Positions 1,722 through 32,446 of a stretch of DNA of 46,790 bases are shown here, one piece after another. The DNA is from Candidatus Scalindua japonica (lineage in GTDB: Bacteria; Planctomycetota; Brocadiia; Brocadiales; Scalinduaceae), in NCBI RefSeq assembly GCF_002443295.1, contig NZ_BAOS01000046.1, positions 1 through 46,790 on the forward strand, given 5' to 3'. The notes beneath the pieces are model-generated. The model was not told where the DNA came from, ran no database searches, and worked only from the letters and a program-made list of their open reading frames with translations. Both the position numbers and the translations under genes were made by a program. The number at the start of each line of letters is the position of its first letter. Within the stretch, counting starts at the first letter, position 1.

Positions 1722-4700
1722 ATGGCTATATATCCGAAAATCATGAAAAGATCAGGGATCAGAATACTTTTAATCATCTTGGGCATTTTTATTTTTGCGG
1801 GTTATGTACAGGCGAATGAAAATATGATAAATATTGGTGGTCTGGAATTTCCGGCTGATTGCTCCCTTGTGAAAAATGAAAGGCCGCGTCTGCTGTTTCG
1901 TGGCAGAGACCTGCCTGCGTATAAGTCCAGAATCCAGGGTGTGATGAAAACGGATTATGAGCGTTTTAAGGCATACTGGGACAAAAAAATCTCTAAGAAG
2001 GACTATAAATTGTTTTCGCCGGAGCAAATGGATGGCATCTGTCTGGGGGTACTATACCAACTCAGCGGTGAACGTCGTTATGCCGATGTTATTAAGAATT
2101 CACCATTCTTTGAAAAAGGGAGTATATTCTGGTCATACCCCTTTACCCTGGATTTGATCATGGACACTCTCACCAGGGAGGAGATTACTAATCAGATAGA
2201 CCGTTTCCTTGCGCTTGGTAGGCAAAATAAGTTCCGGTGGTCAACTGGTAGTGATTGCCTGTGGCCTGCTTTAGTTCTTTACGGCTCTGATCCAGATCGT
2301 GATGAAGAAATTGCAAAGTGGATTGCTCGTGGCGTGAAGGAAACCAGAAAAGTAATTCAGTCTTCAAATTACAGTGCGGACAATCGAGGTGGAGATTTTA
2401 ACAGTTTTTCCTATATCGGCAACCACTCCCTGGTCCGACTTGGAGCGCATATTACTGCCATGAGCAATGCTCTTGACGAAGATACATGGCAGACAAGTAC
2501 ATGGATGCGTCACCTGGCCTCATACTATATCTACCATTTTATGCCATGGAGAAATAGCGTCATCCATTTTGACAACACCACCGGTCTTGTGTTTGGTCCT
2601 GTCGGAAGCTCTTTTGGCGGAGAGTATCTGCTGCACGCTGCTCCGGCACGTTACCGGGACGGGCTCTATCAATGGTGGATTAATCAATTCCTTGTCGCGG
2701 AAAACCCGAAAGCCAGAGGCTGGCGCAGAGAGTCCAGAGAGAATCAAGTCATGGCCGGCTTCTGGGGAAGGCTTCTTTTTTACGATCCTGAAATTCCCAA
2801 ACGGAAGCCGAAGGACATTCCTCCCAGTCGTTTCTTTGCCACTCGTGGTATTGCTTCAATGCGTGAGAATTGGTCCAAAGATGCGACTTTTGTGCATTTC
2901 CGCGCGGGAGCGCTTGGGGGACTGGGAGACAATCGTCACAATGCGGATAATAACACCTTTACCATTTATAAAAAAGGCATCCTGGCATTGGATACTGGCG
3001 GGGCCCATTTGCTGGACATGAAAAGACTTAAATTCAACCCGTCTGCGATAACCGATTATTCTTCCAGGACGCTGGCCCATAATGGCATTCTTATCAAACA
3101 CGAAAAGGAGGAGCCAGTAGCAATTGGAGGAGGATCTCTGCTACGACACTGGCCTGCCCAATGGTCTGAGAAGCGTGGTGTAAATATTACAGAAAGAAAT
3201 GTTGCTAAGATTATAGCGTATGAAACATCCCCGGAATTTGACCACGTGTGCGGAGATGCTACTAATAATTATGACCCCAATGATGTGGACCTTTTCACCA
3301 GAGAAATGGTCTATGCCCGTCCCAATCTCATATTCCTGTATGACCGCGTTGACACTGCGCGTGATCTGTGTCACTCTACATTTCTTCTGCACACTGCTGA
3401 TAAACCCGTGATAGATGGAAGTGAAACACCGGATCAGCGTATTCATCCCGAGGGACATTATCTCTGGGATGGAAATGTGGTTACCGTCACAGATGAAGAG
3501 ATGGGTGGCAGGATGTTCTTAAAGATGTTGCTGCCCGAGACACGGGAAATACGACTGCTCGGTGGCGAGTATCACGAGTTTGAGACACCGGATGGAAAGA
3601 ACCATGGACCTACAGCAGAAACTTACAAGATACCCCTGGACAGTGGGGCCATCAGGCAATCCCGGTTACTGGGAGAAGGTCTGCGTGGTTGGAGAATCGA
3701 GGTGGAAGAGAAAAACGGTGACCGTTCACAACGTTTTTTAAACGTCTTCCAGACTTGTGACGAAGGTGTTTCCAGAATGGTCCCCTGTGAACTTGTGAGT
3801 CGTGATGATATGGAAGGGGCAAAGGTGCAAATTGACGGTCGTACTGTCGAAGTGCTTTTCAACAGCAAAATGCCGTCAGGAGGAGAGATTTCCATCCGTC
3901 AGGATGGGAGAGACATCATCCAGCGAGCTCTTGCAGATAAGATCGAGGACCATTATGAACGCTGGAAGAGTCATCCCGGGTATGAGAAGTGGATGAATGA
4001 TCCTTTTCTTCAATCAGTGGTGTTGGGAGATAACCCGAAACAGAGCCAATCATCAATATCTCTTTTACAGACAGCGACAAATACCGCAACCAAAGCAGAA
4101 AATACAGGTACAATTCATGACGGACAAAATATAGTCAGAGACATACTTTTTAAAGAAGATTTTGAAGATAAGAACTTTACTTCGCGAGGATGGTATGATA
4201 ATACAAACTTGAGTTTAACAGTATCAGAACATGTTCCGGGAAGTAAAAGTTCTGTTGTATTCCACTTCAAAAAAAATGATAAGACGCCACAATCCGGTGG
4301 GGCAATAAGAAAGAAATTTACAGAAACTGACGAAGTTTATGTCAGCTATTTTGTCAAATACAGTTCAAACTGGGAAGGATCTAATAAGACATATCACCCA
4401 CATGAGCTTTATCTATTGACAAACATTGATGATGACTGGATTGGGCCCTCTCGTACTCATTTAACAGCCTATATAGAGCAAAATGAAGGAGAGCCTCTTC
4501 TTGCTATACAGGACGCGCTGAATATTAACCAATCAAAGATAGGCGTTGATCTTACACACGTTACCGAAAACAGGGCTGTAGCAGGCTGTAATGGAGAGGG
4601 GAGCTGTTATAAGGTGGGGAGTGGCCACAACAATGTAAAACATTGGAAGGCAGGCAGTATTTATTTTAAGGATAAGCCTGGTAAAAATTACAAGAGTGAT

Positions 4701-5384
4701 TGGCATTTTATAGAAGCTTATTTTAAATTGAATACTATATCTGGTGGAGAAGGTGTGGCAGATGGTCAGATAAAATATTGGTATGATGGCAATTTGATCA
4801 TTGACCACAATGATGTCATAATGAGGACTGCGATGCATCCCGATATGAAATTCAATAAGATTCTTATCGGGCCATACATAGGTGATGGTTCTCCTGTCGA
4901 TCAGACCTTCTGGATTGATAATTTAACGGTTGCAGCCTCATCTACGGGTGACACCGCCCCTCGGAATAAAATCAGTTCGGAATTACAAACTAACATGACT
5001 GAAGATGAAAGTTTGCAGGAACAGCTTGACAATCTATACCAGATTCCGGGTGTAGAATGGTTACATCAAGGTGTGGATTTGACAAAAGATACTAAAGGAC
5101 CTTTTACTGTCAAGATTCGGGTGGAAGGGCTTGAAGAGGAGAAGCATTCTACCGTCTTTCCGAGAATTAGATATTATGTTGGTACCGGTAAAAGTCATGG
5201 ATACTATGATATGAAATATGAAGGAGAAAATGTTTGGAGTTTTGATATTCCGGATCCGAACTGGCACAAGTACCGCGCTAATAGTATCCATTATCATGTT
5301 AAACTCTTTGATGAAGCAGGTGAGGTTGTTTCAGAGAGCCGTTGGGAAATAGAATTGATTGATTCATTTATCCAATCATATTAG
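1722..5384 (+). CDS. Secreted heparinase II/III-like lyase fused to lectin-like domain
   Basis: This protein has 1220 residues. The N-terminus is a Sec signal peptide (hydrophobic ILLIILGIFIFAGYVQA, ending near residue 31); a start at Met8 (base 1743) is also possible. Residues about 45-350 look like the alpha/alpha-toroid of heparinase II/III-type polysaccharide lyases. Residues about 370-740 form the beta-sheet part, with the family-typical RHNADNNTFTIYKKG around His406 followed by LALDTGG. From about 807 a second module starts (FKEDFEDKNF) and ends near FWIDNLTVAAS (about 1065), resembling a concanavalin-A-type jelly roll. A final Ig-like segment spans about 1105-1215. Lyases of this kind cleave uronic-acid polysaccharides by beta-elimination. 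Placement in an exopolysaccharide locus suggests trimming or turnover of the cell's own polymer. Base composition looks less AT-rich than the sugar cassette at 7005-11539. Substrate is not predictable. Confidence 0.8.
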   Translation: MAIYPKIMKRSGIRILLIILGIFIFAGYVQANENMINIGGLEFPADCSLVKNERPRLLFRGRDLPAYKSRIQGVMKTDYERFKAYWDKKISKKDYKLFSPEQMDGICLGVLYQLSGERRYADVIKNSPFFEKGSIFWSYPFTLDLIMDTLTREEITNQIDRFLALGRQNKFRWSTGSDCLWPALVLYGSDPDRDEEIAKWIARGVKETRKVIQSSNYSADNRGGDFNSFSYIGNHSLVRLGAHITAMSNALDEDTWQTSTWMRHLASYYIYHFMPWRNSVIHFDNTTGLVFGPVGSSFGGEYLLHAAPARYRDGLYQWWINQFLVAENPKARGWRRESRENQVMAGFWGRLLFYDPEIPKRKPKDIPPSRFFATRGIASMRENWSKDATFVHFRAGALGGLGDNRHNADNNTFTIYKKGILALDTGGAHLLDMKRLKFNPSAITDYSSRTLAHNGILIKHEKEEPVAIGGGSLLRHWPAQWSEKRGVNITERNVAKIIAYETSPEFDHVCGDATNNYDPNDVDLFTREMVYARPNLIFLYDRVDTARDLCHSTFLLHTADKPVIDGSETPDQRIHPEGHYLWDGNVVTVTDEEMGGRMFLKMLLPETREIRLLGGEYHEFETPDGKNHGPTAETYKIPLDSGAIRQSRLLGEGLRGWRIEVEEKNGDRSQRFLNVFQTCDEGVSRMVPCELVSRDDMEGAKVQIDGRTVEVLFNSKMPSGGEISIRQDGRDIIQRALADKIEDHYERWKSHPGYEKWMNDPFLQSVVLGDNPKQSQSSISLLQTATNTATKAENTGTIHDGQNIVRDILFKEDFEDKNFTSRGWYDNTNLSLTVSEHVPGSKSSVVFHFKKNDKTPQSGGAIRKKFTETDEVYVSYFVKYSSNWEGSNKTYHPHELYLLTNIDDDWIGPSRTHLTAYIEQNEGEPLLAIQDALNINQSKIGVDLTHVTENRAVAGCNGEGSCYKVGSGHNNVKHWKAGSIYFKDKPGKNYKSDWHFIEAYFKLNTISGGEGVADGQIKYWYDGNLIIDHNDVIMRTAMHPDMKFNKILIGPYIGDGSPVDQTFWIDNLTVAASSTGDTAPRNKISSELQTNMTEDESLQEQLDNLYQIPGVEWLHQGVDLTKDTKGPFTVKIRVEGLEEEKHSTVFPRIRYYVGTGKSHGYYDMKYEGENVWSFDIPDPNWHKYRANSIHYHVKLFDEAGEVVSESRWEIELIDSFIQSY

Positions 5385-5445: not shown

Positions 5446-5985
5446 TCATTCCAAATGAATATTATCAAGGAAAATTGTATGTTTTTTTCTGGGTTGTACC
5501 AGGAAGATGATTACCTGTTGGACGGTTGCAAGGACTATTCTTCTATTTGTTCCTGATGTGTGTAAACGGTTTAATGGAAGAGAAATATGGTTCATGCCAT
5601 ATTTAAGAGTACTTTCGTGGTTGTATCTATTGTGAAATGAAGGAGCGTTCTGGTCATCTATACGAATGGTAAAGAGTAGCGGTGTTTCTTCCTGGTGGTA
5701 CATGTCAAAATTAAGAGTGCTGTAGCTTGACCAATCCGGATTGAACTTATTCAGCTCTACTCCGGGATAGGAAGAGGGATACAACTCCATCTTAAGGCAT
5801 CTTTGACCTGACGTTGCGTGCCTGTCTGTAAGGGTGAAGAGCGATTTACATTGCCATGAGAGTGTATCGAGTGTGTCTTCTGTCTCAAAATCGTACCTAA
5901 ATGGTTGCCTTGGTGAACAACTCATTAAAAGCATAGGTGGGAGTAGTAATAAAAATAACAAACGTATTAATTTGGTATTCAACAT
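5446..5985 (-). CDS. Small lipoprotein with beta-sandwich (CBM-like) domain
   Basis: The 179 residues start with a lipoprotein signal: hydrophobic LLFLLLLPPMLLMSC with the lipobox cysteine at 23. The rest (FRYDFETEDTLDTLSW ... LFTIRIDDQNAP ... HTIFLDNIHLE) has the look of a jelly-roll carbohydrate-binding or galactose-binding-like fold. In such folds a opening DFE and a closing FLDNI frame alternating strands. The start codon lies 6 bases after the stop of the metallophosphoesterase, so the two are almost certainly cotranscribed. No catalytic motif is visible. The function is unknown; binding a glycan at the membrane surface is the best guess. Confidence 0.65.
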   Translation of the reverse strand: MLNTKLIRLLFLLLLPPMLLMSCSPRQPFRYDFETEDTLDTLSWQCKSLFTLTDRHATSGQRCLKMELYPSSYPGVELNKFNPDWSSYSTLNFDMYHQEETPLLFTIRIDDQNAPSFHNRYNHESTLKYGMNHISLPLNRLHTSGTNRRIVLATVQQVIIFLVQPRKKHTIFLDNIHLE

Positions 5986-5991
5986 TAAATA

Positions 5992-6828
5992 TTACTCAAT
6001 AAATTCAAATAATACGACTTCTGGAGGCATGCCAAACCGAAAACGTAGATCTGATGTGCCAATGCCGCTTGTGACATATAATGATTTATTTTCGTTTCGA
6101 TATAAACCGTAAATGTGTGCAACGTCAGGCTTCCTTTTAATAATCTTCCAGATAAATTCAGGGAGAAACACCTGACCTCCATGGGTATCGCCGGAAAGGA
6201 CCAGGACATCCTCTGTTGCGTTTATACTATTGTACACAGAAGAGACGTGAGAGAGTACTATAGTCGGTTTGCCATTATGCATCTTATGCAGAGTTTTTAA
6301 GTCAGGCGCATAGTCCGAATTTCCTAAGCCGATAATAGAAAATTGTGTACCTCCAGCTTCGAGATCCATGCGAGCATTTCTTAAAAATTTGACTTGATGT
6401 TGTATCGGTGGGAGTGTGCTTCCTTCTGAATGACAAAACAGGCAAGACCATCTAGAGAAAGAATAATCCGCATCTCCCATTACAGCGTATACACCAAGTG
6501 GAGCGCTTAATTTTGACAGGAAGCTTATAGCGTTGTCGTAAGCCTGTTTCCCCGCATTCCATTTAACATAATCTCCCGTTAATAAAATCAAGTCGGGTTT
6601 GAGTGTGTTTAAGATTGTAAGTGTGTGTTTTATAGATAAAGACCTGTTTTCTCCGATATGTAGATCGCTAAGCTGTACTATTTTTAATTTCTTAAATGTA
6701 GATGCCAGGGCTTTATTTCTGATCTTAACTGTCTTTAAGTTAACTTTCTGTGGTTCGATGTAGAAACTGTACAATACAACCACTATCAGGCTTGTAATTG
6801 TGATTCCAATAAAAAATTTTCTCATCAT
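5992..6828 (-). CDS. Membrane-anchored metallophosphoesterase with CXXCH insert
   Basis: The 278 residues begin with one membrane segment (FFIGITITSLIVVVLYSFYI), which should place the domain outside the cytoplasm. The calcineurin-like fold is recognisable from DLH (Asp55, His57), TGD (Asp86), SHVS (His194) and GDTHGGQ (213-219). It resembles the YkuE-type phosphoesterases that act on phospholipid-linked substrates. Two motifs deviate. The canonical GNH(D/E) reads GDAD (118-121), losing the Asn metal ligand and the catalytic His, and the canonical GHTHGGQ reads GDTHGGQ (Asp214). Directly after GDAD a segment contains CLFCH (129-133), a perfect c-type haem attachment motif. The gene leads a two-gene unit with the lipoprotein. 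Whether it is still a hydrolase is uncertain. Confidence 0.8.
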   Translation of the reverse strand: MMRKFFIGITITSLIVVVLYSFYIEPQKVNLKTVKIRNKALASTFKKLKIVQLSDLHIGENRSLSIKHTLTILNTLKPDLILLTGDYVKWNAGKQAYDNAISFLSKLSAPLGVYAVMGDADYSFSRWSCLFCHSEGSTLPPIQHQVKFLRNARMDLEAGGTQFSIIGLGNSDYAPDLKTLHKMHNGKPTIVLSHVSSVYNSINATEDVLVLSGDTHGGQVFLPEFIWKIIKRKPDVAHIYGLYRNENKSLYVTSGIGTSDLRFRFGMPPEVVLFEFIE

Positions 6829-7004
6829 TTTTAAACAACTTTTTTTGTTTTCATTTTCAAATATTCTTGATTTTTTTTACTAACTTACTATACTCACATA
6901 AATTACTTAAAGTAGTTTCCTGTCAACAAATGTTCAAACGCTATCTTTACTATTCTAAAGTCTTCGTCTCGAATATTTATATCTGAGATTATCGGAAATA
7001 ATAA

Positions 7005-7565
7005 ATGTCATTTCAATTCAAAAAACTTGCCATACCGGAAGTGATCTTAATCGAACCTGAAGTGTTTAAAGACGATCGCGGTTTTTTTATGGAAACATAT
7101 AAGCTTTCTGATTTTAAAAAAACAGGCATTGATGTTGATTTTGTTCAAATATGCCATTCTCGTTCGAGTAAGAATATTTTGCGTGGATTACATTACCAAT
7201 TAAATCCAAATGCTCAAGGAAAACTTGTTCGTTGTATTAAAGGTGATGTTTTTGATGTGGCCGTTGATATTCGTGAAGGCTCTCCTACTTTTGGCAAGTG
7301 GGTTGCTGAAATACTTTCTGAGGATAATAATAAAATGTTGTATATTCCTGAGGGGTTTGCTCATGGGTTTGTAGTGTTAAGTGATTGGGCAGATATGTTG
7401 TATAATATGACGAATGAATATGCCCCGGAATCAGCACGTGGAATCGCATGGGATGATGCTGGTTTGGCTATTTCATGGCCTGTCAGTAACCCTGTATTGT
7501 CTGAAAGTGACCAGAATAGTCCGGCACTTGAAAAAATAGATAACACATTTAAATATGAGAAATAA
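7005..7565 (+). CDS. rfbC: dTDP-4-dehydrorhamnose 3,5-epimerase (RmlC-type), copy 1
   Basis: The length (186 residues) and the cupin fold match RmlC: VFKDDRGFFMETY, LRGLHYQLNP with the catalytic His, GDVFDVAVDIREGSPTFG and IPEGFAHGFVVLSD. The enzyme epimerises C3 and C5 of dTDP-4-dehydro-6-deoxyglucose in the cytoplasm. It opens a five-gene run and overlaps the following RmlD-like gene by 11 bases, so the two are translationally linked. In this cassette the product may feed a C-methylated sugar rather than ordinary rhamnose, and some relatives epimerise only one carbon. A second, different RmlC gene lies at 31819-32379. Confidence 0.9.
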   Translation: MSFQFKKLAIPEVILIEPEVFKDDRGFFMETYKLSDFKKTGIDVDFVQICHSRSSKNILRGLHYQLNPNAQGKLVRCIKGDVFDVAVDIREGSPTFGKWVAEILSEDNNKMLYIPEGFAHGFVVLSDWADMLYNMTNEYAPESARGIAWDDAGLAISWPVSNPVLSESDQNSPALEKIDNTFKYEK

Positions 7566-8424
7566 ATTTTTAATAACCGGCGCAAATGGGCAATTAGCAA
7601 AAGCATTTATTTCTCAATTAACAGATGCAAAGAAGGAAGTCAGTTCATTTACTAAAGAACAGTTAGATATTTCAAATTATAACGCAGTCATCAAAATCGC
7701 GAAGGATATAAAGCCGGATTATATTATTAATTGTGCCGCATTTAATTATGTAGATGCAACCGGGGAAGAATATGATACAGCCTTTGAAATCAATACTAAT
7801 GGAGTAAAAAATTTAGCGTTAAGTAGTAAAGAAATAGACGCTTTTTTAGTCCATTTTAGTACTGATTTTGTTTTTGATGGGAAGAAAGACGGTTTGTATA
7901 CAGAAGAAGACCTGCCTCATCCGGTTAATCCTTATGGACAGAGTAAATTAGAAGGGGAGAGAATTCTCAAGGAGGTCGGTGCTGATTATTTATTACTCAG
8001 GACTAGTTGGGTGTTTGGGGATGGGAGACAAAATTTCTTATATAAGCTTTCTCAGTGGGCGGCTAAAGCAGATGTATTAAAAGTCACTGCAAATCATGTT
8101 TCGGTGCCTTCTTACTCAGAAGACATTGCCAGAGTCACTTTATTAGCTTTAGAAGCGAAACTTAAATGGCTTTATCATTTGTGCAATAGCGGTTATGCTT
8201 CGCGTTACGAATTAGCACGACAATATTATGAGTCTATGGGAATTGAAAAGGTTATTATACCTGTCCCTGATACTTATTTTAAAGAAAAGGTACAACGCCC
8301 TTATTTCACGGCTATGTCAAATGCAAAGATTTCTCATGATTTAAACATCACCATTCCCGATTGGAGAGATGGGGTCAATCGCTTCTGCGAGCAAATGAAG
8401 GAAGGTAAATATGCGAGATTTTAA
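7555..8424 (+). CDS. rfbD: dTDP-4-dehydrorhamnose reductase-like (RmlD family)
   Basis: This is a short-chain dehydrogenase of the extended RmlD type, with 289 residues. The N-terminal NAD(P)-binding motif is TGANGQLAKAF, the Ser/Thr catalytic motif is FSTDFVFDGKKDG, and the Tyr-x3-Lys pair is YGQSKLEGE. RmlD reduces the 4-keto group of the epimerised dTDP sugar with NAD(P)H. The ATG at 7555 lies inside the end of rfbC, and the end overlaps the C-methyltransferase start by 14 bases. Because a C-methyltransferase follows, the physiological substrate could be a methylated 4-keto sugar; that is inference from context. Confidence 0.88.
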   Translation: MRNKFLITGANGQLAKAFISQLTDAKKEVSSFTKEQLDISNYNAVIKIAKDIKPDYIINCAAFNYVDATGEEYDTAFEINTNGVKNLALSSKEIDAFLVHFSTDFVFDGKKDGLYTEEDLPHPVNPYGQSKLEGERILKEVGADYLLLRTSWVFGDGRQNFLYKLSQWAAKADVLKVTANHVSVPSYSEDIARVTLLALEAKLKWLYHLCNSGYASRYELARQYYESMGIEKVIIPVPDTYFKEKVQRPYFTAMSNAKISHDLNITIPDWRDGVNRFCEQMKEGKYARF

Positions 8425-9667
8425 AGAGACCACATCATGTAGAGTTTGTCGATCTGAAAATTTATTTCAATATCTTGATCTTGGAAGTCATCCATTGGCT
8501 AATTCTTATATAAAACAGAATCAAGTTAATGAGGAAGAGTTTAAAGCTCCGCTGAAGATTCTGTTGTGCGAAGAGTGCGGCCTCTCGCAACTATCTGTAG
8601 TGGTTAATCCGGAGAAAATGTTTACTCATTATTTGTATGTTAGTTCTACTCCTGAGACGTTCAGAGATCATTGTGATCAGCTGGCTGGGGATGTAAGTCA
8701 ATTATTGCATCATGGTACAGATAAGTTTGTTCTGGATATTGCAAGTAATGACGGTTGTTTATTAAGAGCATTTCAAAAACAAGGGTTTAAAACATTAGGA
8801 GTGGATTCTGCGAAGAATCTGGCAAAAGAAGCTAATGAAAAAGGGATTGAAACTATTTGTGGTTTTTGGTCAACGTCTATCGCTTTAAATATAGTTGAAA
8901 GATATGGCAGGCCGTCAATTATTACCGGGCAAAATGTATTCGCGCATGTTGGCGATGTTCATGAATTTGTCAAAGCGGTTGAAATTTGTTTAGATGATAA
9001 AGGAATGTTTATTTTAGAATTTCCATATTTATTAGATTTCATTGAACGTAATCTTTTTGATACCGCTTACCATGAACATGTTTCTTACGTAGGAGTAAAT
9101 CCTGTTAAATATCTTATCGAAAAATACGGACTTGAGATCATCGATATTAAACGGTTTTATAATATTCATGGAGGTACGATTAGAATAATTATGGCAAGAA
9201 AAGGGGTGTATCAAGTTTTCGATAATGTCAGGGAGGTATTAGAGCGGGAAGAAAGCTTTGGTATTAAAAACAGTGAAACCTATATCGCATTTGCTAAACG
9301 TGTGGATAAAATTAAACAAAATTTAATTGCTTTGCTTGATCAGGCGAAAGAAGAGGGACGGACTATCTGGGGATATGGGGCAAGCGCGAAAGGGAATACT
9401 CTTTTGAACTATTTTGGTATTAATAACCAATTGATAGAACGTATTATTGATGATAATCCTAAAAAATGGAAATATTTAACACCCGGTGCAAGAATACCAA
9501 TTTGCGGGATTGAGGAGTTAAATTCAAAAGACAATATGGTGGATGATTTATTATTATTAGCCTGGAATTTTGGTGAAGAAATACAAAAAAGATGTATGGC
9601 TGTCGGGTATAAAGGAGATTTTATTTATCCTGTTCCGAGGCCAGAAAGAGTAAAATCTGTATCATAA
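8411..9667 (+). CDS. Sugar C-methyltransferase (TylCIII/NovU-like)
   Basis: The three-part architecture of SAM-dependent sugar C-methyltransferases is complete in 418 residues. An N-terminal zinc module has cysteines 10 and 13 (CRVC) and 53 and 56 (CEEC). The central Rossmann methyltransferase has LDIASNDGCLL as the SAM-binding loop and AYHEHVSY, the region that in the family holds the catalytic base. The C-terminal module has IWGYGASAKGNTLLNYF. Characterised relatives methylate a carbon next to the keto group of dTDP-4-keto-6-deoxysugars. The gene sits between the reductase and the dehydratase of the same pathway with a 14-base overlap upstream. The position methylated is not predictable here. 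Confidence 0.85.
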   Translation: MRDFKETTSCRVCRSENLFQYLDLGSHPLANSYIKQNQVNEEEFKAPLKILLCEECGLSQLSVVVNPEKMFTHYLYVSSTPETFRDHCDQLAGDVSQLLHHGTDKFVLDIASNDGCLLRAFQKQGFKTLGVDSAKNLAKEANEKGIETICGFWSTSIALNIVERYGRPSIITGQNVFAHVGDVHEFVKAVEICLDDKGMFILEFPYLLDFIERNLFDTAYHEHVSYVGVNPVKYLIEKYGLEIIDIKRFYNIHGGTIRIIMARKGVYQVFDNVREVLEREESFGIKNSETYIAFAKRVDKIKQNLIALLDQAKEEGRTIWGYGASAKGNTLLNYFGINNQLIERIIDDNPKKWKYLTPGARIPICGIEELNSKDNMVDDLLLLAWNFGEEIQKRCMAVGYKGDFIYPVPRPERVKSVS

Positions 9668-9680
9668 AATAATTGGAGCC

Positions 9681-10637
9681 ATGATGTCGAAAAAAGTTGT
9701 TGCGGTAACAGGCTGTTTAGGCTTTATTGGATCTCATTTCACTCGTGCTTGTTTACATAGAGGATGGAATGTCTGGGGGATCGATAAGATAACTTATGCG
9801 GCGCATGAGCACTGTTTACAAGAATTTAAAAGGTCAGACCTTTTTAAATTTACACAGGCAGATATATGTACAATGACTCATCTGTATGATATTGACGTTG
9901 TTGTTAATTTTGCGGCTGAAACACATGTAGATAATTCAATTATGGATGCCAGGCATTTTGTTCAGACAAATGTTTGTGGTGTTGAAAATTTATTGGAATT
10001 AATCAGAAGTAAGCGTAATTATGAAATGCCTTTATTGGTCCACATCAGTACAGATGAAGTATATGGAGATATTGCAGAAGGGCTTCATAGCGAAACAGAT
10101 ATTTTAACGCCGAGCAATCCTTATTCTGCTTCCAAAGCAGCAGCAGATTTACTGATTTTAGGTTGGCATAGAACGCACGATATTCCTTATAATATTATCC
10201 GTCCAACCAATAATTATGGTCTGGACCAGTATCCTGAGAAACTTATTCCTAAGGCGGTTAAATATTTAACATTAGGTAAGCCAATTCCAGTTCATGGGGA
10301 TGGGAGTTGCCGAAGGAATTGGTTGCATGCACAAGATACAACGCAAGGGATAATGACAGTTATTGATAAGGGAGAGTGTAATACCGTCTATAATTTATCA
10401 GGTAACTGTGAATTGCCAAACAAAGAGGTTATTCAAAAGATTATCAATTATTATTTTGGCGAAGAACCATCTGATCCGGAAAAATATACAAAAACAAATT
10501 ATGTTCGTATTGGGGAAGATATACGCTATTCATTAGACGATAGCAAATTGAGGAAACTGGGATTTAAGCCTGAACAAGATTTTGATGAACAGCTTAAGGC
10601 ACTCGTTAAATATTATAAAGATCATTTTATTTGGTGA
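9681..10637 (+). CDS. NAD-dependent nucleotide-sugar dehydratase/epimerase (RmlB-like)
   Basis: The 318 residues form an extended short-chain dehydrogenase. The coenzyme motif is TGCLGFIGSHF; VVNFAAETHVDNSI, ISTDEVYGDI and YSASKAA (Tyr-x3-Lys) closely follow dTDP-glucose 4,6-dehydratase, including the Thr-Asp-Glu catalytic group. RPTNNYGLDQYPEKLIPK is also RmlB-like. It is about 30 residues shorter than usual RmlB proteins and less canonical than the copy at 32447-33505, so a related reaction on a different nucleotide sugar is possible. The start is one of two adjacent ATGs preceded by GGAG. It is 13 bases after the methyltransferase and ends at the next gene. Confidence 0.82.
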   Translation: MMSKKVVAVTGCLGFIGSHFTRACLHRGWNVWGIDKITYAAHEHCLQEFKRSDLFKFTQADICTMTHLYDIDVVVNFAAETHVDNSIMDARHFVQTNVCGVENLLELIRSKRNYEMPLLVHISTDEVYGDIAEGLHSETDILTPSNPYSASKAAADLLILGWHRTHDIPYNIIRPTNNYGLDQYPEKLIPKAVKYLTLGKPIPVHGDGSCRRNWLHAQDTTQGIMTVIDKGECNTVYNLSGNCELPNKEVIQKIINYYFGEEPSDPEKYTKTNYVRIGEDIRYSLDDSKLRKLGFKPEQDFDEQLKALVKYYKDHFIW

Positions 10638-10639
10638 AC

Positions 10640-11539
10640 ATGAAATTATCAGTCATAACTCCCATTCATAATGAAACTGAATGTATCCCTCTATTCTTAG
10701 ATAAAATCAAGCCTGTCTTAGATGATTTAAAAGGGATTGAGGGGTGGCAGTTGTTTTTTGTTAACGATGGAAGCACAGATAACTCTTTAGATTTACTTAA
10801 ACATGCACATCTGAAAGATAATCGAATTAATGTTATTTCATTATCAAGAAATTTTGGATATCAAGCGGCGCTTTTAGCTGGACTTCAGACTGCAGATTCT
10901 GATGTATATGCAATTATAGATGTTGATTGTGAAGATCCACCGGAATTATTGAAAGTCTTTCTCCAGAAAATCAATGAAGGTAATCACCTAGCTTATGGGA
11001 TACGTTCTCAGCGGCCGGAACCAAAGTACATTGTCTGGTGCCGAAAGATATTTTATAAGTTGAATATGCTGATAGCTGACAGTAATGTTTATATGTGGAT
11101 GGCAGAGTACAGCATGTTTACTCGTCATCTACGTAACGCAATTTTGAAGCCACAAACAACATTTCCTTTTTTGCGTACTGAAATGGCTTATGCAGGGTAT
11201 AAATCGGAAGGTATTCAATATCAACGTCAAAAACGTATAGCAGGTAAATCTCACTATAAATTTTATCAGATGGCAAGGTTTGCTATTGCGGGAATTCTGG
11301 CAGGTACTACTTTTCCTCTACGTTTTATATTATCTTTGTCTGTAGCCATTTTTTTGGTGTTTAGTGTTTTGCTGTTTTCAATTCATGATCTTTCGCTGTT
11401 AACTTTTCTAACGATAGATTTAGGTTTGTTTTATCTTTTGATTACTATTCCTCTCATAAGCATATATTTGGCTCGAACATATAAAAATGTTGTTAATAGA
11501 CCTGGATTTTTTATTGACCCACAAGACACCTATATTTAA
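10640..11539 (+). CDS. Family 2 glycosyltransferase with two membrane segments (GtrB/DPM1-like)
   Basis: I chose the ATG at 10640, two bases past the stop of the preceding gene, over an in-frame TTG at 10631. The GT-A core shows SVITPIHNE at the N-terminus, FFVNDGSTDNSLDLL (nucleotide binding) and DVDCEDPPELL (metal-binding region). The C-terminal 80 residues hold two membrane segments (LRFILSLSVAIFLVFSVLLF and LGLFYLLITIPLISIYLA). This layout fits polyprenyl-phosphate glycosyltransferases of the GtrB/ArnC/DPM1 group, which load a sugar onto a lipid carrier. It closes the sugar cassette and could use its product. The next gene is convergent, 19 bases away. Confidence 0.85.
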   Translation: MKLSVITPIHNETECIPLFLDKIKPVLDDLKGIEGWQLFFVNDGSTDNSLDLLKHAHLKDNRINVISLSRNFGYQAALLAGLQTADSDVYAIIDVDCEDPPELLKVFLQKINEGNHLAYGIRSQRPEPKYIVWCRKIFYKLNMLIADSNVYMWMAEYSMFTRHLRNAILKPQTTFPFLRTEMAYAGYKSEGIQYQRQKRIAGKSHYKFYQMARFAIAGILAGTTFPLRFILSLSVAIFLVFSVLLFSIHDLSLLTFLTIDLGLFYLLITIPLISIYLARTYKNVVNRPGFFIDPQDTYI

Positions 11540-11558
11540 TACAGAAATTACAATGTTA

Positions 11559-12887
11559 CTAAATATTCAATCGCTTTGACTGTAATGATTGAAACTGATT
11601 TTCTTTATCTAATTTATGCTTGTAAATAATAAATTCTTCGGATTTGTTATAACTTTTTTTAAACATTTCAGCGCTCATTCTCGCATCCTTGGTTAAATAT
11701 AATCTTCCGCCATAATCTGTAACTATTTCATCTAATTGATCTAAAAAAGCAAACAACTCAGAAGAAATAGGAAAATCTAATGCAAGTGTAAATCCCTCCA
11801 TTGGAAAGGATATCAGGTTTGCGTTTTCTTTGCCAAAAAGTTTCAATCCAGCAAAAAAGGAACCCATTTTACTCTCATTTACTTTCCTTAATATCTTGAT
11901 AATGCCATCTTTGCATGCATTCTTAGGTAAAACAAACTGATATTCAGTAAAACCTCTTTTCCCATAGATTCTGTTCCAGTTATGGATGCCATCAACGGGA
12001 TAAAAAAAAGAGTCGTAGTCAACTATAGAGTCTTCTGCCTTTTTAGAATGTTTGTTATAGATGAGAACATTAATGATTTTTACGGTTAATTTATTCAGTG
12101 TGAAATCAGGAAACATAAATGGGATATTAAACCTCTTTTTTTTCTTTATTTTCAGTAGGTTTTGAGAAATATCTGATTTCTTCATATCTTTCGTTGTTGC
12201 ATGCTCTCCTAACATCAAAATACCCCTTCCGGACTTCTCTCCTTTCGAAAGGCAATCTATCCAGGCGATTGAATAAGTGAAGTTATTGTACTGTTCAAAC
12301 AACTCCATCATCTCGTAAATATTTCTGGCCCTGATAGTTTTCTGCTTTATATAAGCGGTTTCAATTCTTTTTAACCTTATTACCGCATTGAGAATTATTC
12401 CCGTTAGTCCCATTCCCCCACATGTGGCCAGGAATAAATGGTAATTTGCCACTCTTGAACAACGAATAATCATACCTCCGGGCAACATAATGTCCATAGA
12501 TACAATATAGTCTGAAAATGAGCCCTCTTTATGATGATTTTTACCATGTACATCACTGGCTATCGCTCCACCTACCGTAATAAATTTAGTCCCTGGAGTT
12601 ACAGACAAAAACCAGCCTTTTAAAATACACTTATCAATAATTTTATCTAAACTGACACCGGCATCACATTTGATAGTCCCATTATTCTCATCAAAATCAT
12701 GTATGCTATTTAGACTGAGGAGAGAAATTATGTTTTTATTTAATGAAGAGTCTCCATAACTGCGGCCTGACCCCCTTGTTATGAGAGGATGCTTATCTCT
12801 TAAATGCTCTTTCAGGCCGTTATCGGTGCTGAATTTTTTAATGTCCGCGTCTATTACAGGATAATTTCCCCAACCTGATAATTTCAT
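11559..12887 (-). CDS. FAD-dependent oxidase of DprE1 (decaprenylphosphoryl-ribose oxidase) type
   Basis: This 442-residue protein is a VAO-type flavoprotein. The FAD-binding motif TRGSGRSYGDSSLN (37-50) and the pyrophosphate-binding stretch VGGAIASDVHGKNHH (105-119) are nearly diagnostic of the DprE1 family. The C-terminal half carries the ALO-like substrate domain. DprE1 oxidises the 2'-hydroxyl of polyprenyl-phosphoryl ribose, and with the reductase DprE2 makes the arabinose donor of mycobacterial walls. Homologues outside actinobacteria are common and their substrates are often unknown. No DprE2 gene is visible beside it. The upstream neighbour is a polyprenyl-type membrane glycosyltransferase, consistent with a lipid-linked sugar. 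Confidence 0.8.
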   Translation of the reverse strand: MKLSGWGNYPVIDADIKKFSTDNGLKEHLRDKHPLITRGSGRSYGDSSLNKNIISLLSLNSIHDFDENNGTIKCDAGVSLDKIIDKCILKGWFLSVTPGTKFITVGGAIASDVHGKNHHKEGSFSDYIVSMDIMLPGGMIIRCSRVANYHLFLATCGGMGLTGIILNAVIRLKRIETAYIKQKTIRARNIYEMMELFEQYNNFTYSIAWIDCLSKGEKSGRGILMLGEHATTKDMKKSDISQNLLKIKKKKRFNIPFMFPDFTLNKLTVKIINVLIYNKHSKKAEDSIVDYDSFFYPVDGIHNWNRIYGKRGFTEYQFVLPKNACKDGIIKILRKVNESKMGSFFAGLKLFGKENANLISFPMEGFTLALDFPISSELFAFLDQLDEIVTDYGGRLYLTKDARMSAEMFKKSYNKSEEFIIYKHKLDKENQFQSLQSKRLNI

Positions 12888-12922
12888 ATAAATCTTTTAA
12901 ATGGTATCAATGATGTTTTAAT

Positions 12923-14875: not shown

Positions 14876-15646
14876 ATGTGTTTTTTTTCTTTTTTTACAT
14901 TACTATTGCTGCTAACAATTGGAAATGTTTCTGCTCATGGCCGTGATACCCATCTGGTAGAGACGATAAATAGAATCAAACCTTCAATAATAGCGGTTGG
15001 GACCTATCATCCACTTTCCAGACCTGCAGTAAAATTCTATGGTACTGGTTTTGTCATTAGTAGAAATGGTTTCGCAATTACGGCAGAGCATGTAATAAGT
15101 GCGATAGCAAGAAATGGCGAAATGGGTAATTTATATGCTTTTTTTCCTGATACAGGGAACTCAATAAAAGTAAGTGCTAAACTCATAAGCAAGAATATAA
15201 AATATGACCTTTCGATTATTAAATTGAAAGGAAGTGGATTTGATTATTTAAAGTTAGGAGATTCTTCAAGTGTTAAAGAAGGTCAGTCTATCGCACTTTG
15301 TGGTTATCCATATGGCCCTGTTTTTGGATTGCATCCAACTACACATACTGGAATAATCAGTAATATAAGTCCTATGGTAGTTCCCGTACAGAATATGTCA
15401 TTACTTTCCAATAGAATGATAAAGGCATTAACAGACCCATATTACATCTTTCAGATTGATTGTACGGCTTTTCCCGGTAACAGTGGTGGGCCGCTGGTTC
15501 TTCCTGAAACGGGTGAAGTTATAGGTGTGTTGAATAGTGCATTTATAAAGATCACAAAGGAGAATAAGCAGATATCTACCGGCATTAGTTATGCGATACC
15601 TATCAATTATGTAAGAGAGCTTATTGAATCTATCAAAAAGAAGTGA
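14876..15646 (+). CDS. Secreted trypsin-like serine protease (HtrA/S1C), no PDZ domain
   Basis: A signal peptide (FFTLLLLLTIGNVSA, cleavage near residue 20) is followed by one chymotrypsin-fold protease domain. The catalytic triad is visible: His72 in ITAEHV, Asp111 in YDLSIIKL, Ser203 in GNSGGPL. At 256 residues it ends right after the protease domain, so the PDZ domains of DegP/DegS are absent. It should act in the periplasm or at the surface on misfolded or specific proteins. It precedes the giant TPR gene by 195 bases, but a good promoter in that gap argues for separate transcription. The PEP-CTERM gene further on suggests an envelope-protein context. Confidence 0.85.
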   Translation: MCFFSFFTLLLLLTIGNVSAHGRDTHLVETINRIKPSIIAVGTYHPLSRPAVKFYGTGFVISRNGFAITAEHVISAIARNGEMGNLYAFFPDTGNSIKVSAKLISKNIKYDLSIIKLKGSGFDYLKLGDSSSVKEGQSIALCGYPYGPVFGLHPTTHTGIISNISPMVVPVQNMSLLSNRMIKALTDPYYIFQIDCTAFPGNSGGPLVLPETGEVIGVLNSAFIKITKENKQISTGISYAIPINYVRELIESIKKK

Positions 15647-15841: not shown

Positions 15842-18800
15842 ATGGATGAATTTAAAAAAACACGCAGGAAACGTAGGCAAAAAAACACTGGTATGATCGA
15901 GAGTACCGATAATCCGGCGAAGAGATACAGACGCTCCAGGAGTTCCAGGGGTACGAAGTTCTGGATTTTGTTTGTGGTAGTTCCAATAATTGTCGTGTTG
16001 TGTGCGTCTATAGGCTCTTACGGTTTATACAAAAAGAGAAAAGCATCTCGTTACGAAAATACTAAACAAGGTCTGCAGCAAGGATCGATATATGCAAAAT
16101 TAAATAGACATAATGATGCAATTAAAGAGTATAAAAAGGCGTTGGAGAAGAACCCTCAGGATATCAATATCCTCTATCAATTGGGCATTTCATATATCAA
16201 GTTAAAGGAATTTGACAAAGCGGTAAGTGCGTTTAAAACTGCCCTCAAAATCAAACCGAATTACTCAAAAGCACGTTTCCAGTTGGCAGTCATTAGATTA
16301 ACTAAGGCAAAAGAGTTAAGAAAGCTTGGTGAGAGTGAATCTGTTGTTTTAGAAATACTGTTGGATGCTGAAGATATATGCAGAGAGATAATAGAGAAAG
16401 ATAATAATTTCATACAGGCGTATGCTTTATTAGGGGAAGTTCATTTCTTACAAGGATTACTTGATGATGCCATAATAGATTATAAACGTATACTCAAAAT
16501 TGATAATTCATATGTAAATGGTCATATTGCTCTTGCCAGGTTGTACGTGAACAAAGGTAGTTTAGATATGGCAGAGGAGGAGTGTAAATTAGTGCTGTCA
16601 GAATTTGAACCCGATAATAAGATGGTGCAGTTTCTCTTAGCGACAATTTACGAGCAAAAAGGCATGTATGATGAGGCCGTTTCATTATTGATGCGGATGA
16701 GCGAGGATGCGCCTGGTAATACGATGGTGAACATACAATTAGGTTTATTATATTTGAAACTGTCTAAATTTGATGAGGCACTTGAGCAAGCCGATAAAGT
16801 TGCTTCTCCGCTGCCACCGGCAGTATATTTTATTAAAGGAAGTGTGTTGCTGCAAAGAAAAAAATTCAAGGAAGCTATTACCCTCTTGAAAGAGGCAGTT
16901 ATTAGCTTGCCTAAACTGGTAGAACCACACTATTTTCTGGCACATGCTTTATCAGGGATTGGGCGTTTTGAGGAAGCTAAGACTGAGTTTAAAACTGCCA
17001 TCAACCTCGCTCCAAATTTCGTTCCCGCAAAAATTGGTCTTGCGAAGCTCCTGTCGAGCGCGGGTTGGCATAAAGAAACAATTGATCTGTGTAATGAAGT
17101 CCTTGAACTCAAACCTGACAATGTGGATGCGATGCAATTGCTTGGTCTGGCATATATTAAAGAACAAGATTTTGAAAACGCTGAAAAACAGTTTCGGAAA
17201 ATTCAAGAGATAGACTCATCTGTTGGTGATATTAATATGGCCTATTTGAGCCTTACTTCGGGACAGTTAAGCAAGTGTATACGTCAGTGTGAGGAGATTC
17301 TCCATACTGATCCTGAGACAGTAAAAATTTATGATATTCTGGGTCTGGCACACATAAGACGAGGTGATTTCGATAGTGGTATTGAACAATTTAAGAAGGC
17401 CCTGAAGTTAAATCAGAATTCAATATCTACTCTTGTTAATCTTGCAAAGGTTTACGTAGTAGCTGAAAGAATAGATGAGGCGAAGAAAATACTGAAAACA
17501 ACGTTATCAACAAATCCGGATAATTTAAAAGTATTGTCTTTATTAGCAGGTATATATCAGAGGGAAAGCAATGTTGATGAGTCGGCAAAAATCTTTGAAC
17601 GGATAATAGAAATAGACCCTGATTTAATTGACGGTTATGGATTAGCCAGTATGTATTTCTTGCAGGGTAAGACAGACGAGTCGATTGATTTGTATAATAA
17701 GGCGCTTAAACTCATTCCTGAAAATGTTGTAATACTTACGAATCTTGCCCTATCGTACCAACAAAAGGAAAATTATGTAGCATCTCTCAAATATTGTACA
17801 AAGGCAATTGAATTAAGACCTGAAAATCCATCTTATAAGTTTATGTTGGCAAATATTTTTATTGCTAAAGGTGCACATAGCGCCGCGAAGGAGCAAATTG
17901 AATCTATACCATCTTTCTCAGGTGACCAGAAAAATGCGTTTCTTGAATTAATAGATTTATCCCAATTGGACGAAAAGAAAGGAAAGCAGATAGCACTTGC
18001 ATTAAATAAAATAATCTTTCTGAGGCAAGGTGGTTTATTAGATTTGGCAATAAAAGAGTGTAAAAAGGCAATTGAGATTTTTCCTGAAAATATAATTCCT
18101 AAAGTAATCCTGGCTAATACCTATCTCAGTTTAAAGCGTAACGAGGAGGCGATTGCAGTATATTCTGAAATTGTCAAAGAGAAACCGGAGTTTGCGTCCT
18201 CTTATTATGATCTGGGAATGGCATATATTTTGAGCGGTAATCAGGACCAGGCACTTTCAACGTATCAAATGCTTGATGATAATGATGAGGGGTCTGTGTC
18301 GGCTCGCCTGGTACTTGCAGGTACTCTTATGAAAGATGGTGATGCGGAAAAGGCGGAAAAGGCGGCAAAGATAGTTGGGGATGTTATAAAAATAGATCCG
18401 AACAATTTGATGGCTCAAAGTTTGTTGGGTAAGATGAGCCTTGCGGATAAGGATTATTCAAAGGCAGAAACCGCATTCACGAAGATGATTGAATTAAAGG
18501 GTGATACTTTTGAAGGTCATTTTAATATGGCAAGAATGAAATTATCTCAAGGTGAATATGAAGAGTGTATTCAGCACTGTAAGGTGGCATTGCGAACAAA
18601 GCCTGTAGATGTGCGAATACATAATATCCTGGGAGTTGCTTATATGAGGAAAGGTATGTTAAAAGATGCGGCATTATCTTTTAATAAAATAATAGACATT
18701 AATTCTGATTTTATTCCGGCTTATCTGAATCTTGCACATATGAACATGGTTGCGCAAAAGCCTGGCATAGCTTCTCTTTTGTACAAAGCTGCACTGAAGG

Positions 18801-20278
18801 TGGATTCTGATTCAGTTGAAGCTCGAATTGGCTTAGGAAATTCATACGCGCTATTGAATGATAATGTACTTGCTATTGCTGAATTTGAGACGGTGATAAA
18901 AAAATATCCTAACAATATTGATGCTCATGTTGCATTGGCAAGAAGCAATATTGCTCTGGGTAATAACACGAAGGCAAAACAGGCAGTAATGAATGCTTTA
19001 AGCATAGACACTGATAATCCAATAGCACGTTCTGTGCTAACGAAGATATATGTAATAGATGAAGATATGCAACAGGCAATAAAACAGTTGGAATGGGTTT
19101 TGGTAAAAAGCCCTAAAACAATAGAAGTTTATGATCTTGGGGTTTTGTATGTGGACATTGGAGAGTTTGATAAGGCTATATCAGTTTATAAGCAGGGTGT
19201 AGACAATTTTCCTGGTAATCACTTATTGTGGTGCAATCTTGCAGTTACTTATCAATTAGGTAAGGATTATAAAAGTGCTAAAACTGCTTTTAATAAGGCA
19301 TTAACAATTCAGCCGGATGGTATTATTCCAAATTTGTGCATGATTCATTTATATATGGCTAAAGGTGAAATAGATAATGCGAGACAGCATTTGAAAAACT
19401 TGACAATAATCGGAGATGTAAACAAGCGGAGGTATCTGCGTTTGTTGGAATTGTGTGGTAAGGATGTGGAAGTAGCTGATAAGGTATCACATCATTTATC
19501 ACGGGCTATTATTTATTCTAATAATAGATGGTCCAAACGTATTATAAACGAATATGATGAGTTGATAAAAATGGTACCTGGCAATGCTGTTGCATATAAT
19601 GCAAAGGCAGATAATCTGGTATTGATTCGACAATATGATAAAGCAATAAAAGCTTATAAGAAAATAATAGAAATAGAGCCGGAATCTCCGGATGCTTATA
19701 TTAAACTTGCCGGTGTATATAGACGTAGTGGGGACAATGATGAGGCATTGGCTCAGTTTAGAAGGGTAATACGTGTTGATCCTGAGAATACTATTGCTCA
19801 CTTGAATATAGGCATTTTGACAGAAGCCAAAGGTCTGCTTGAGGAATCAGTCAATTTTTATAATAAGGTAATAGAATTAGACCCGAATTCTTCGGTTGCG
19901 TACAATAACCTTGCATGGTTATATGCATCAAAAATGAAGAATAAAATTGAAGAAGCATTGGTGCTGGCAAAAAAAGCAAAGGAACTTAATCCGAATAATC
20001 CAGCCATTGCCGATACTCTTGGGTGGATTTACTATTTGGATGCTGATTATGACAATGCTGTTTCGGAGCTTAGAGCTGCGGCGCGTAATGCGACATGGAA
20101 CCCTTCTATACGTTATCACCTTGGGGCTGCTTATTACAAAAAGGGGATTCTGAGAGATGCATTGAGAGAGATGGAACGTGCATTAAAAATTAGTAGCACT
20201 TTTCCTGAGGCGGAAGATGCAAAAGAAATTATTGAAAAAATAATAATAAACAAGGTAAGGGGCAACAGTAGTAAGTGA
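15842..20278 (+). CDS. Giant membrane-anchored TPR repeat protein
   Basis: The protein has 1478 residues. The first 39 are extremely basic (KKTRRKRRQK, KRYRRSRSSR), followed by one membrane helix (WILFVVVPIIVVLCASIGSYG, 41-61). The remaining roughly 1400 residues are almost unbroken 34-residue tetratricopeptide repeats, around 40 by length. Repeats such as NRHNDAIKEYKKALEKNP and KEFDKAVSAFKTALKIKP show the W/L-G-Y-A-F-A-P pattern. By the positive-inside rule the TPR array lies in the periplasm, or in the planctomycete equivalent. TPR superhelices are scaffolds for protein complexes; no catalytic domain is present. It resembles the very large TPR proteins that accompany PEP-CTERM/exosortase loci, but lacks their lipobox. 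The PEP-CTERM gene 1 kb downstream supports such a link only loosely. Confidence 0.9.
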   Translation: MDEFKKTRRKRRQKNTGMIESTDNPAKRYRRSRSSRGTKFWILFVVVPIIVVLCASIGSYGLYKKRKASRYENTKQGLQQGSIYAKLNRHNDAIKEYKKALEKNPQDINILYQLGISYIKLKEFDKAVSAFKTALKIKPNYSKARFQLAVIRLTKAKELRKLGESESVVLEILLDAEDICREIIEKDNNFIQAYALLGEVHFLQGLLDDAIIDYKRILKIDNSYVNGHIALARLYVNKGSLDMAEEECKLVLSEFEPDNKMVQFLLATIYEQKGMYDEAVSLLMRMSEDAPGNTMVNIQLGLLYLKLSKFDEALEQADKVASPLPPAVYFIKGSVLLQRKKFKEAITLLKEAVISLPKLVEPHYFLAHALSGIGRFEEAKTEFKTAINLAPNFVPAKIGLAKLLSSAGWHKETIDLCNEVLELKPDNVDAMQLLGLAYIKEQDFENAEKQFRKIQEIDSSVGDINMAYLSLTSGQLSKCIRQCEEILHTDPETVKIYDILGLAHIRRGDFDSGIEQFKKALKLNQNSISTLVNLAKVYVVAERIDEAKKILKTTLSTNPDNLKVLSLLAGIYQRESNVDESAKIFERIIEIDPDLIDGYGLASMYFLQGKTDESIDLYNKALKLIPENVVILTNLALSYQQKENYVASLKYCTKAIELRPENPSYKFMLANIFIAKGAHSAAKEQIESIPSFSGDQKNAFLELIDLSQLDEKKGKQIALALNKIIFLRQGGLLDLAIKECKKAIEIFPENIIPKVILANTYLSLKRNEEAIAVYSEIVKEKPEFASSYYDLGMAYILSGNQDQALSTYQMLDDNDEGSVSARLVLAGTLMKDGDAEKAEKAAKIVGDVIKIDPNNLMAQSLLGKMSLADKDYSKAETAFTKMIELKGDTFEGHFNMARMKLSQGEYEECIQHCKVALRTKPVDVRIHNILGVAYMRKGMLKDAALSFNKIIDINSDFIPAYLNLAHMNMVAQKPGIASLLYKAALKVDSDSVEARIGLGNSYALLNDNVLAIAEFETVIKKYPNNIDAHVALARSNIALGNNTKAKQAVMNALSIDTDNPIARSVLTKIYVIDEDMQQAIKQLEWVLVKSPKTIEVYDLGVLYVDIGEFDKAISVYKQGVDNFPGNHLLWCNLAVTYQLGKDYKSAKTAFNKALTIQPDGIIPNLCMIHLYMAKGEIDNARQHLKNLTIIGDVNKRRYLRLLELCGKDVEVADKVSHHLSRAIIYSNNRWSKRIINEYDELIKMVPGNAVAYNAKADNLVLIRQYDKAIKAYKKIIEIEPESPDAYIKLAGVYRRSGDNDEALAQFRRVIRVDPENTIAHLNIGILTEAKGLLEESVNFYNKVIELDPNSSVAYNNLAWLYASKMKNKIEEALVLAKKAKELNPNNPAIADTLGWIYYLDADYDNAVSELRAAARNATWNPSIRYHLGAAYYKKGILRDALREMERALKISSTFPEAEDAKEIIEKIIINKVRGNSSK

Positions 20279-31818: not shown

Positions 31819-32379
31819 TTACTGGTAAATTGGAAGATGTATTTCCGGCGCCTCTTTCAATCCTGGATATTGCTTGTCTTTATCTGATACCGTCGGAACT
31901 TCTACAGGCCAGTCTATTCCAATTGAGGGGTCTGACCATACCACACCATATTCATCATCCGGGTTATACAGGTCAGTAGTTTTATATAACACATCTGCAG
32001 TTTCACTGACGACGCAGAAGCCATGAGCAAAACCTTCAGGAACAAAAACCTGTCGTCTGTTTTTTTCGGAAAGATATGCTCCTACCCATTTACCAAATCC
32101 GGGAGATCCGCGACGTATGTCAACAGCAACATCATATATTTCCCCCGTAATAACATAAACCAATTTGCCTTGTGGGTGGTTTAACTGATAGTGCAGTCCT
32201 CTCAGTGTCCCGCGTGTTGAGTGTGAGTAATTGTCCTGAACAAAGACATGGTCTATGCCCGCGTCAGCATATTTCTTCTGATGGAAGGTTTCCATGAAAA
32301 AACCGCGGGAATCATTAAAAACTTTAGGCTCAAGCAGTAAAACGCCTGGCAGGTCCATGATAGTATATTTAATAGACAA
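31819..32379 (-). CDS. rfbC: dTDP-4-dehydrorhamnose 3,5-epimerase (RmlC), copy 2
   Basis: The 186 residues are a canonical RmlC. VFNDSRGFFMETFHQKKY, TRGTLRGLHYQLNHPQGKL with the catalytic His, GEIYDVAVDIRRGSPGFGKW and FVPEGFAHGFCVVSE can be seen. It differs in sequence from the copy at 7005-7565 and looks closer to the textbook form. It follows rmlB by 67 bases and completes the first half of dTDP-rhamnose synthesis. The glucose-1-phosphate thymidylyltransferase (RmlA) and a second reductase are not here, so RmlD at 7555 or another copy elsewhere must finish the pathway. Confidence 0.93.
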   Translation of the reverse strand: MSIKYTIMDLPGVLLLEPKVFNDSRGFFMETFHQKKYADAGIDHVFVQDNYSHSTRGTLRGLHYQLNHPQGKLVYVITGEIYDVAVDIRRGSPGFGKWVGAYLSEKNRRQVFVPEGFAHGFCVVSETADVLYKTTDLYNPDDEYGVVWSDPSIGIDWPVEVPTVSDKDKQYPGLKEAPEIHLPIYQ

Positions 32380-32446
32380 CTGTTAAAAGCTCCTGATCTG
32401 TTATAATATTGCCTTCTCAGCAATGATATTTTCTAATCTTTAAAAA

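Follow-up and report, generated by a model that had tools for sequence, protein, structure and literature searches.

A conserved CXXCH insertion in the altered active-site loop of a metallophosphoesterase relative from Candidatus Scalindua japonica

Could a metallophosphoesterase fold carry a c-type haem? This question is raised by one gene in a 46,790-nucleotide stretch of the Candidatus Scalindua japonica genome (contig NZ_BAOS01000046.1), which was analysed at its full length and is called the window here. On the minus strand, at 5992-6828, an open reading frame encodes a protein of 278 aa, whose translation includes ...YAVMGDADYSFSRWSCLFCHSEG...LVLSGDTHGGQ.... A sequence-only reading of this DNA had described the protein as a metallophosphoesterase in which the GNHD loop has become GDAD, with the haem motif CLFCH eight residues on, and in which a metal-ligand His of the GHTH motif is replaced by Asp. 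The translation bears out both descriptions: GDAD occupies residues 118-121 and CLFCH residues 129-133, C129 being the eighth residue after D121, and GDTH stands at residues 213-216. In our literature search, no paper joining metallophosphoesterase and haem c was found, nor any on Scalindua and metallophosphoesterase. The gene and the residues that matter below are as follows.

5992..6828, minus strand: metallophosphoesterase-fold protein with CXXCH, 278 aa (PF00149, E 8.5e-9; AF2 pTM 0.85; 4 orthologues)
6748..6828, minus strand: N-terminal hydrophobic signal anchor, residues 1-27, with no twin-arginine motif (AF2 helix 2-27; hydropathy)
6658..6666, minus strand: DLH, motif I, metal site A ligands, intact, residues 55-57 (invariant in the clade and homologues)
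6571..6576, minus strand: GD, motif II, bridging Asp, intact, residues 85-86 (alignment)
6466..6477, minus strand: GDAD where homologues have GNHD (Asn replaced by Asp and His by Ala/Ser), residues 118-121 (across the 5 orthologues D119 and D121 never vary and residue 120 is A or S)
6400..6465, minus strand: loop of residues 122-143 with a clade-specific insertion of 12-14 residues (not in any homologue outside the clade)
6430..6444, minus strand: CLFCH, CXXCH c-type haem attachment motif, residues 129-133 (C, C and H invariant in 5 orthologues)
6397..6399, minus strand: His144, clade-specific invariant residue, candidate second axial ligand (N/K/E/A/S/R in homologues)
6247..6249, minus strand: His194, metal ligand of the LSH motif, intact (alignment)
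6181..6192, minus strand: GDTH, with Asp for the metal site B His of GHTH, residues 213-216 (alignment)
6115..6117, minus strand: His238, clade-specific invariant residue, alternative axial ligand (Tyr in homologues)

Then, what kind of protein is this? In a Pfam profile search, the family of calcineurin-like phosphoesterases (PF00149) matched at 36.6 bits, above its curated cut-off of 21.5, and AlphaFold gave a confident metallophosphoesterase fold (pTM 0.85), for which Foldseek found Mre11, NadN and TT1561 among PDB structures (probability 1.00, TM about 0.4-0.5). The best NCBIfam match is LpxG (NF033458, E 2.6e-32), with 112.4 bits against an equivalog cut-off of 350, and the match to YaeI (NF008460) is also significant, with 103.5 bits against a cut-off of 188. 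A canonical YaeI or LpxG enzyme was rejected, since both scores fall far under the equivalog cut-offs. Judged from its residues, the protein is a member of the superfamily by descent and a non-canonical enzyme, because the ligand set DxH / GD / GNH[DE] / H / GHxH is incomplete; most likely it descends from YaeI/LpxG-like (COG1408) metallophosphoesterases. It aligns over its full length, with 30-37% identity, to YaeI/YkuE-type phosphodiesterases (COG1408; NF008460) and to Tat-bearing homologues in the Brocadiales, which share its fold, metal site A and N-terminal membrane or signal segment. However, these relatives have intact GNHD and GHTH motifs, no insertion, no CXXCH and a Tat motif. Upstream of the annotated ATG there is a poly-A run (window 6828-6854, minus strand), and the in-frame codons there (..NKKSCLK) look like the longer N-terminus of the orthologues (MSTKKSYLTTKR). 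Therefore, translation may truly begin further upstream, or the length of the homopolymer may be in error.

The NCBIfam result raises the possibility that the protein is the UDP-2,3-diacylglucosamine pyrophosphatase of Scalindua, that is, an LpxG-like enzyme of lipid A synthesis that faces the cytoplasm, in which CXXCH would be incidental. Chlamydial LpxG is likewise calcineurin-like, and it too has an N-terminal membrane helix (PMC4807358). However, LpxG has canonical motifs, retaining GNHD and GHXH, and a cytoplasmic lipid A substrate, whereas the score here is 112 against a cut-off of 350 and the gene lies in an exopolysaccharide locus together with an exported carbohydrate-binding lipoprotein. 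In addition, the gene is present in five of the 13 genomes of the genus and in none of the other eight, so that an essential step in lipid A synthesis is unlikely. We consider this reading very improbable.

How far has the active site been changed? Outside the CXXCH clade, D55, H57, D86, N119, H120, D121, H194, H214 and H216 are kept in 25 of 25 aligned homologues. Within the clade, the metal-A ligands D55, H57, D86 and H216 are kept together with H194, whereas N119 has become Asp, H120 Ala or Ser, and H214 Asp. That is, the metal-site-B and general-acid positions are altered and the metal-site-A ligands are intact. Furthermore, D119, D121, D214 and H216 are invariant in the five genomes, and among the homologues examined GD[AS]D was seen only along with CXXCH, a decayed copy in genome G015 aside. 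The earlier description of a haem motif placed after a mutated active site is supported in part, since GD[AS]D and CXXCH are conserved together in 5/5 orthologues, but GDTH has to be set apart. A phylum-wide search for GDTHGGQ yielded three further genuine phosphoesterases (L105, L107 and L110), planctomycetal proteins that have the same His-to-Asp change at metal site B and differ in keeping GNHD or GNWD, in lacking CXXCH and in standing apart from the clade in the tree. Coupling of all three substitutions to CXXCH was thus rejected as regards GDTH: since GDTHGGQ recurs in these proteins, the replacement of His by Asp in GHTH does not form one set with the motif. The other DNA matches to GDTHGGQ (L106, L108 and L109) were discarded, as their frames contain no phosphoesterase. 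In L105 (G131, frame from position 16), a domain of roughly 200 residues is inserted between the GNHD and H-x-P motifs.

Such changes leave room for a phosphoesterase that is still catalytically active, its metal site being retuned and its CXXCH loop secondary; this reading overlaps those with and without haem. Neither metal site A nor the GD bridge is altered, and the His of GNHD is replaced elsewhere, as GNCD in YfcE-type class III PDEs (PMC4320098) and as GNWD or GNRD in the family members L071, L075 and L083, while GDTH occurs in the otherwise canonical members L105 and L107. On the other hand, loss of the GNHD Asn inactivates Rv0805 (N97A; PMC3776917), and here the Asn, the His and the site-B His are changed together, GD[AS]D being found in no other homologue examined. 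We regard an active enzyme of this kind as possible, though less likely than not.

Relative to the homologues, the insertion of 12-14 residues begins directly past the GNHD position. In the five orthologues it contains C-X-F-C-H, where L, G or R fills the first X and F invariably fills the second. CLFCH is the sole CXXCH among the open frames of at least 100 aa in the window, the chance expectation of such a motif is about 0.0006-0.0007 per protein of 278-aa length, and its two cysteines are the only ones in the soluble domain. H133, H144, H238 and M117 are new invariant residues in the clade, among which H144, H238 or M117 is, by its conservation, a possible distal haem ligand. When the insert was compared with PDB sequences, cytochrome c555 was the only one matching at E<=10, no single match being significant by itself, and the insert gave no match to the Pfam cytochrome families. 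A comparable case is known from the Cache domains (DUF3365/Tll0287), in which an inserted 13-residue CXXCH fragment (EVRCQSCHEQGAR) binds haem (PMC12889525). There, as here, a CXXCH fragment sits in an unrelated extracytoplasmic fold, the comparable stretch being SRWSCLFCHSEGS in the window and SRKSCGFCHEEGS in genome G002. However, the Cache fold is a sensor and the present one a metallohydrolase, and haem has been proven by spectroscopy in Cache, as against the motif alone here.

Could the cysteines instead, joined by H133, H144 or both, make up a structural zinc site, or else a disulfide or redox-switch loop, with no haem? C-X2-C-H-X10-H is plausible as a zinc set, and haem is inseparable from zinc or disulfide by sequence alone. 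AlphaFold gives no sign of a haem pocket; its pLDDT is below 50 at residues 123-129 and 133-142, so the loop is effectively unmodelled, speaks neither for nor against such a pocket, and is equally compatible with zinc or a disulfide. However, C, C and the His right after the second Cys are all conserved, and a disulfide needs no such His. Moreover, the protein is probably exported in a host with the cytochrome c maturation System II, for which accessible CXXCH peptides are substrates. On this evidence a haem-free loop seems somewhat doubtful to us.

The preferred reading, haem attachment, requires attention to where the domain lies. The sequence-only reading had proposed an N-terminal membrane helix that places the domain where cytochrome c maturation works. 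AlphaFold agrees on the helix (residues 2-27), and the domain is probably outside the cytoplasm, as suggested by the Tat signals of the closest homologues, the Sec-like signal anchor of the clade and the lipoprotein gene next door. A Tat motif is found in 23 of 24 sister-family homologues, the exception having a truncated start call, and in 0 of 5 CXXCH orthologues. The mean peak hydropathy is 2.36 in the five orthologues (2.23 for the anchor of the window protein) against 1.22 in the Tat-bearing relatives. Tat exports folded proteins, and System II works on Sec-delivered apoprotein. The switch from Tat to a Sec-like anchor would thus fit haem attachment, since System II needs the apoprotein threaded unfolded; plain anchors are also found in other superfamily members. 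A counter-point to export is LpxG, the top NCBIfam family here, which pairs an N-terminal membrane helix with a cytoplasmic substrate.

As for the machinery, the earlier reading had named a Ccm system, that is, System I, and in this respect it has to be corrected: the host genome has System II, with neighbouring CcsA and ResB genes and another such pair. System II has been documented in anammox bacteria (PMC4222556). Purified bacterial CcsBA attaches haem to peptides of as few as 9 residues, requiring both thiols and the His and not the adjacent helix (PMC8112865).

Is the motif maintained by selection, or is it a chance or neutral feature of a decaying gene? Orthologues with 67-70% identity occur in four other genomes of the genus, the named loci being those of Candidatus Scalindua sp. 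SI037_bin72 and Candidatus Brocadiaceae bacterium S225, and GD[AS]D, GDTH and the C-X-F-C-H insertion are kept in all five intact copies. dN/dS is about 0.2 in all pairwise comparisons of the five, with dS at 0.83-1.26 for every pair but one, so that synonymous sites are near saturation. C129, C132 and H133 are invariant across the five genomes, and several motif positions show silent codon variation with the residues unchanged. The CXXCH, GD[AS]D and GDTH motifs are under purifying selection. Decay has occurred in a sister genus, where L077 (G015:C6:28397-29208) is a gene copy with several frameshifts that still shows GDAD and GDTH and reads CELCR at the haem motif, and most genomes of the genus are without the gene. 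However, the low dN/dS, the motif residues fixed despite synonymous codon change and the conserved partner gene all stand against a chance motif, which was rejected for the five intact copies and is almost certainly not the explanation. Homologues that keep GDAD/GDTH and have lost CXXCH at random, a pattern that the sequence-only reading had set against its own proposal, were not found among intact genes, the G015 pseudogene being the only such copy.

The clade is narrowly distributed. Searches of the order (62 genomes), the class (75) and the phylum (392 sampled), and of viral contigs, revealed no further CXXCH-bearing relative, coverage beyond Planctomycetota being shallow; the best plasmid matches are distant metallophosphoesterases, about 28-33% identical. 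A pattern-based contig scan, which reaches close relatives only, gave just two Scalindua-type loci. In the tree, the stem branch of the clade is long (1.87 changes per column), which hides in what order the changes arose and whether they were coupled.

What does the protein work with? The following neighbours in the window bear on this question.

5446..5985, minus strand: 179-aa lipoprotein, CBM11-like beta-sandwich, partner gene (lipobox LLMSC; Foldseek)
1722..5384, plus strand: two-domain polysaccharide lyase-like protein (HepB-like 3e-17, PF14099 2e-5, both below cut-off)
14876..15646, plus strand: trypsin-like protease, conserved neighbour (PF13365 5e-23; synteny)
15842..20278, plus strand: TPR-repeat protein, 1,478 aa, conserved neighbour

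The sequence-only reading had suggested the coupled lipoprotein as a partner, and the wider comparison supports this. The lipoprotein gene lies 6 bases downstream of the phosphoesterase gene in the window, adjoins it with the same orientation in each of the five genomes, and is present, family-wide, in exactly the five genomes that have the phosphoesterase. Its top Foldseek match is CtCBM11 (E 6e-7), on a moderate model (pTM 0.67), and Pfam CBM_11 scores under its cut-off on the lipoprotein orthologues. The protease and TPR genes diverge from the pair. The protease is adjacent to the pair in the other four genomes, whereas in the window seven genes (7005-14587), mostly for sugar-nucleotide and glycan synthesis, lie between them. 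The polysaccharide lyase-like gene flanks the pair on its other side, and three of the remaining four loci also have a relative of it close by. The window copy encodes an exported 1220-aa protein in which a HepB-like heparinase region is fused to a PF14099-like lyase region. The host genome encodes two exosortases, and the G015 pseudogene has exosortase, EpsI and TPR genes as neighbours. The locus is thus an exopolysaccharide/exosortase setting. A role in defence was rejected, as PADLOC gave no match.

Several other genes of the window were noted. At 11559-12887 (minus strand) there is a homologue of the DprE1-like decaprenylphosphoryl-ribose oxidase (1.4e-126, below the equivalog cut-off), adjoined in this planctomycete exopolysaccharide cluster by a PMT_2-type glycosyltransferase (12923-14587). 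Two RmlC copies (7005-7565 and 31819-33505) occur within the 47 kb, each with an RmlB-like gene nearby, and a PEP-CTERM protein (TIGR02595) is encoded downstream of the TPR gene (21299-22177, plus strand).

A functional parallel is offered by UpsH (YpbG) of B. subtilis, a COG1408 undecaprenyl-diphosphate-glycan phosphoesterase that frees undecaprenyl phosphate from a lipid-linked polymer and requires both conserved His of its metal-binding motif (PMC11898649). By that description, a lipid-linked surface polymer as substrate would suit an exopolysaccharide locus. However, the first His of the metal motif is Asp in the window protein, and UpsH has no reported haem motif. By analogy with the release of undecaprenyl phosphate by UpsH, a glycan linked to a lipid pyrophosphate was probably the ancestral substrate.

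Taken with an even chance of being right, our explanation is that the protein is a membrane-anchored extracytoplasmic phosphoesterase derivative that carries haem c, covalently bound, next to a remodelled active site and acts with the CBM11-like lipoprotein. A short cytochrome-like CXXCH segment would have entered the active-site GNHD loop of a COG1408-type ancestor. After Sec export, the host System II would most likely attach one haem c to the loop, where it would lie next to or above the remodelled metal site. The binuclear site may have been remodelled around the haem, with site A kept, site B formed by Asp-Asp-His-Asp and the catalytic His gone, and the product would work with its co-encoded lipoprotein in the exopolysaccharide/exosortase locus. 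Given the remodelled site and the lost His, an ordinary phosphodiesterase appears less likely than a regulator that responds to redox state or gas, or than a slow or specialised phosphoesterase capped by haem. The further idea that the redox state of the haem or its binding of NO controls or replaces the binuclear-site chemistry by way of the grafted CXXCH, so linking anammox redox and NO to surface polysaccharide, is, in our judgement, unlikely.

In these marine anammox bacteria, as the alignments indicate, a phosphoesterase relative has lost key active-site residues and gained a conserved CXXCH in the same loop, and haem may be bound here by an enzyme fold in which it has not been reported. 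If haem is attached, the metallophosphoesterase fold would here bear a haem c, something that our literature search found nowhere reported, and this would be the second case, after the Cache domains, of a short CXXCH fragment converting an unrelated extracytoplasmic fold, here at the catalytic loop. Anammox metabolism runs via NO and many c-type cytochromes, and a haem-bearing protein of this kind would be a candidate redox- or gas-responsive component in a marine anammox exopolysaccharide locus.
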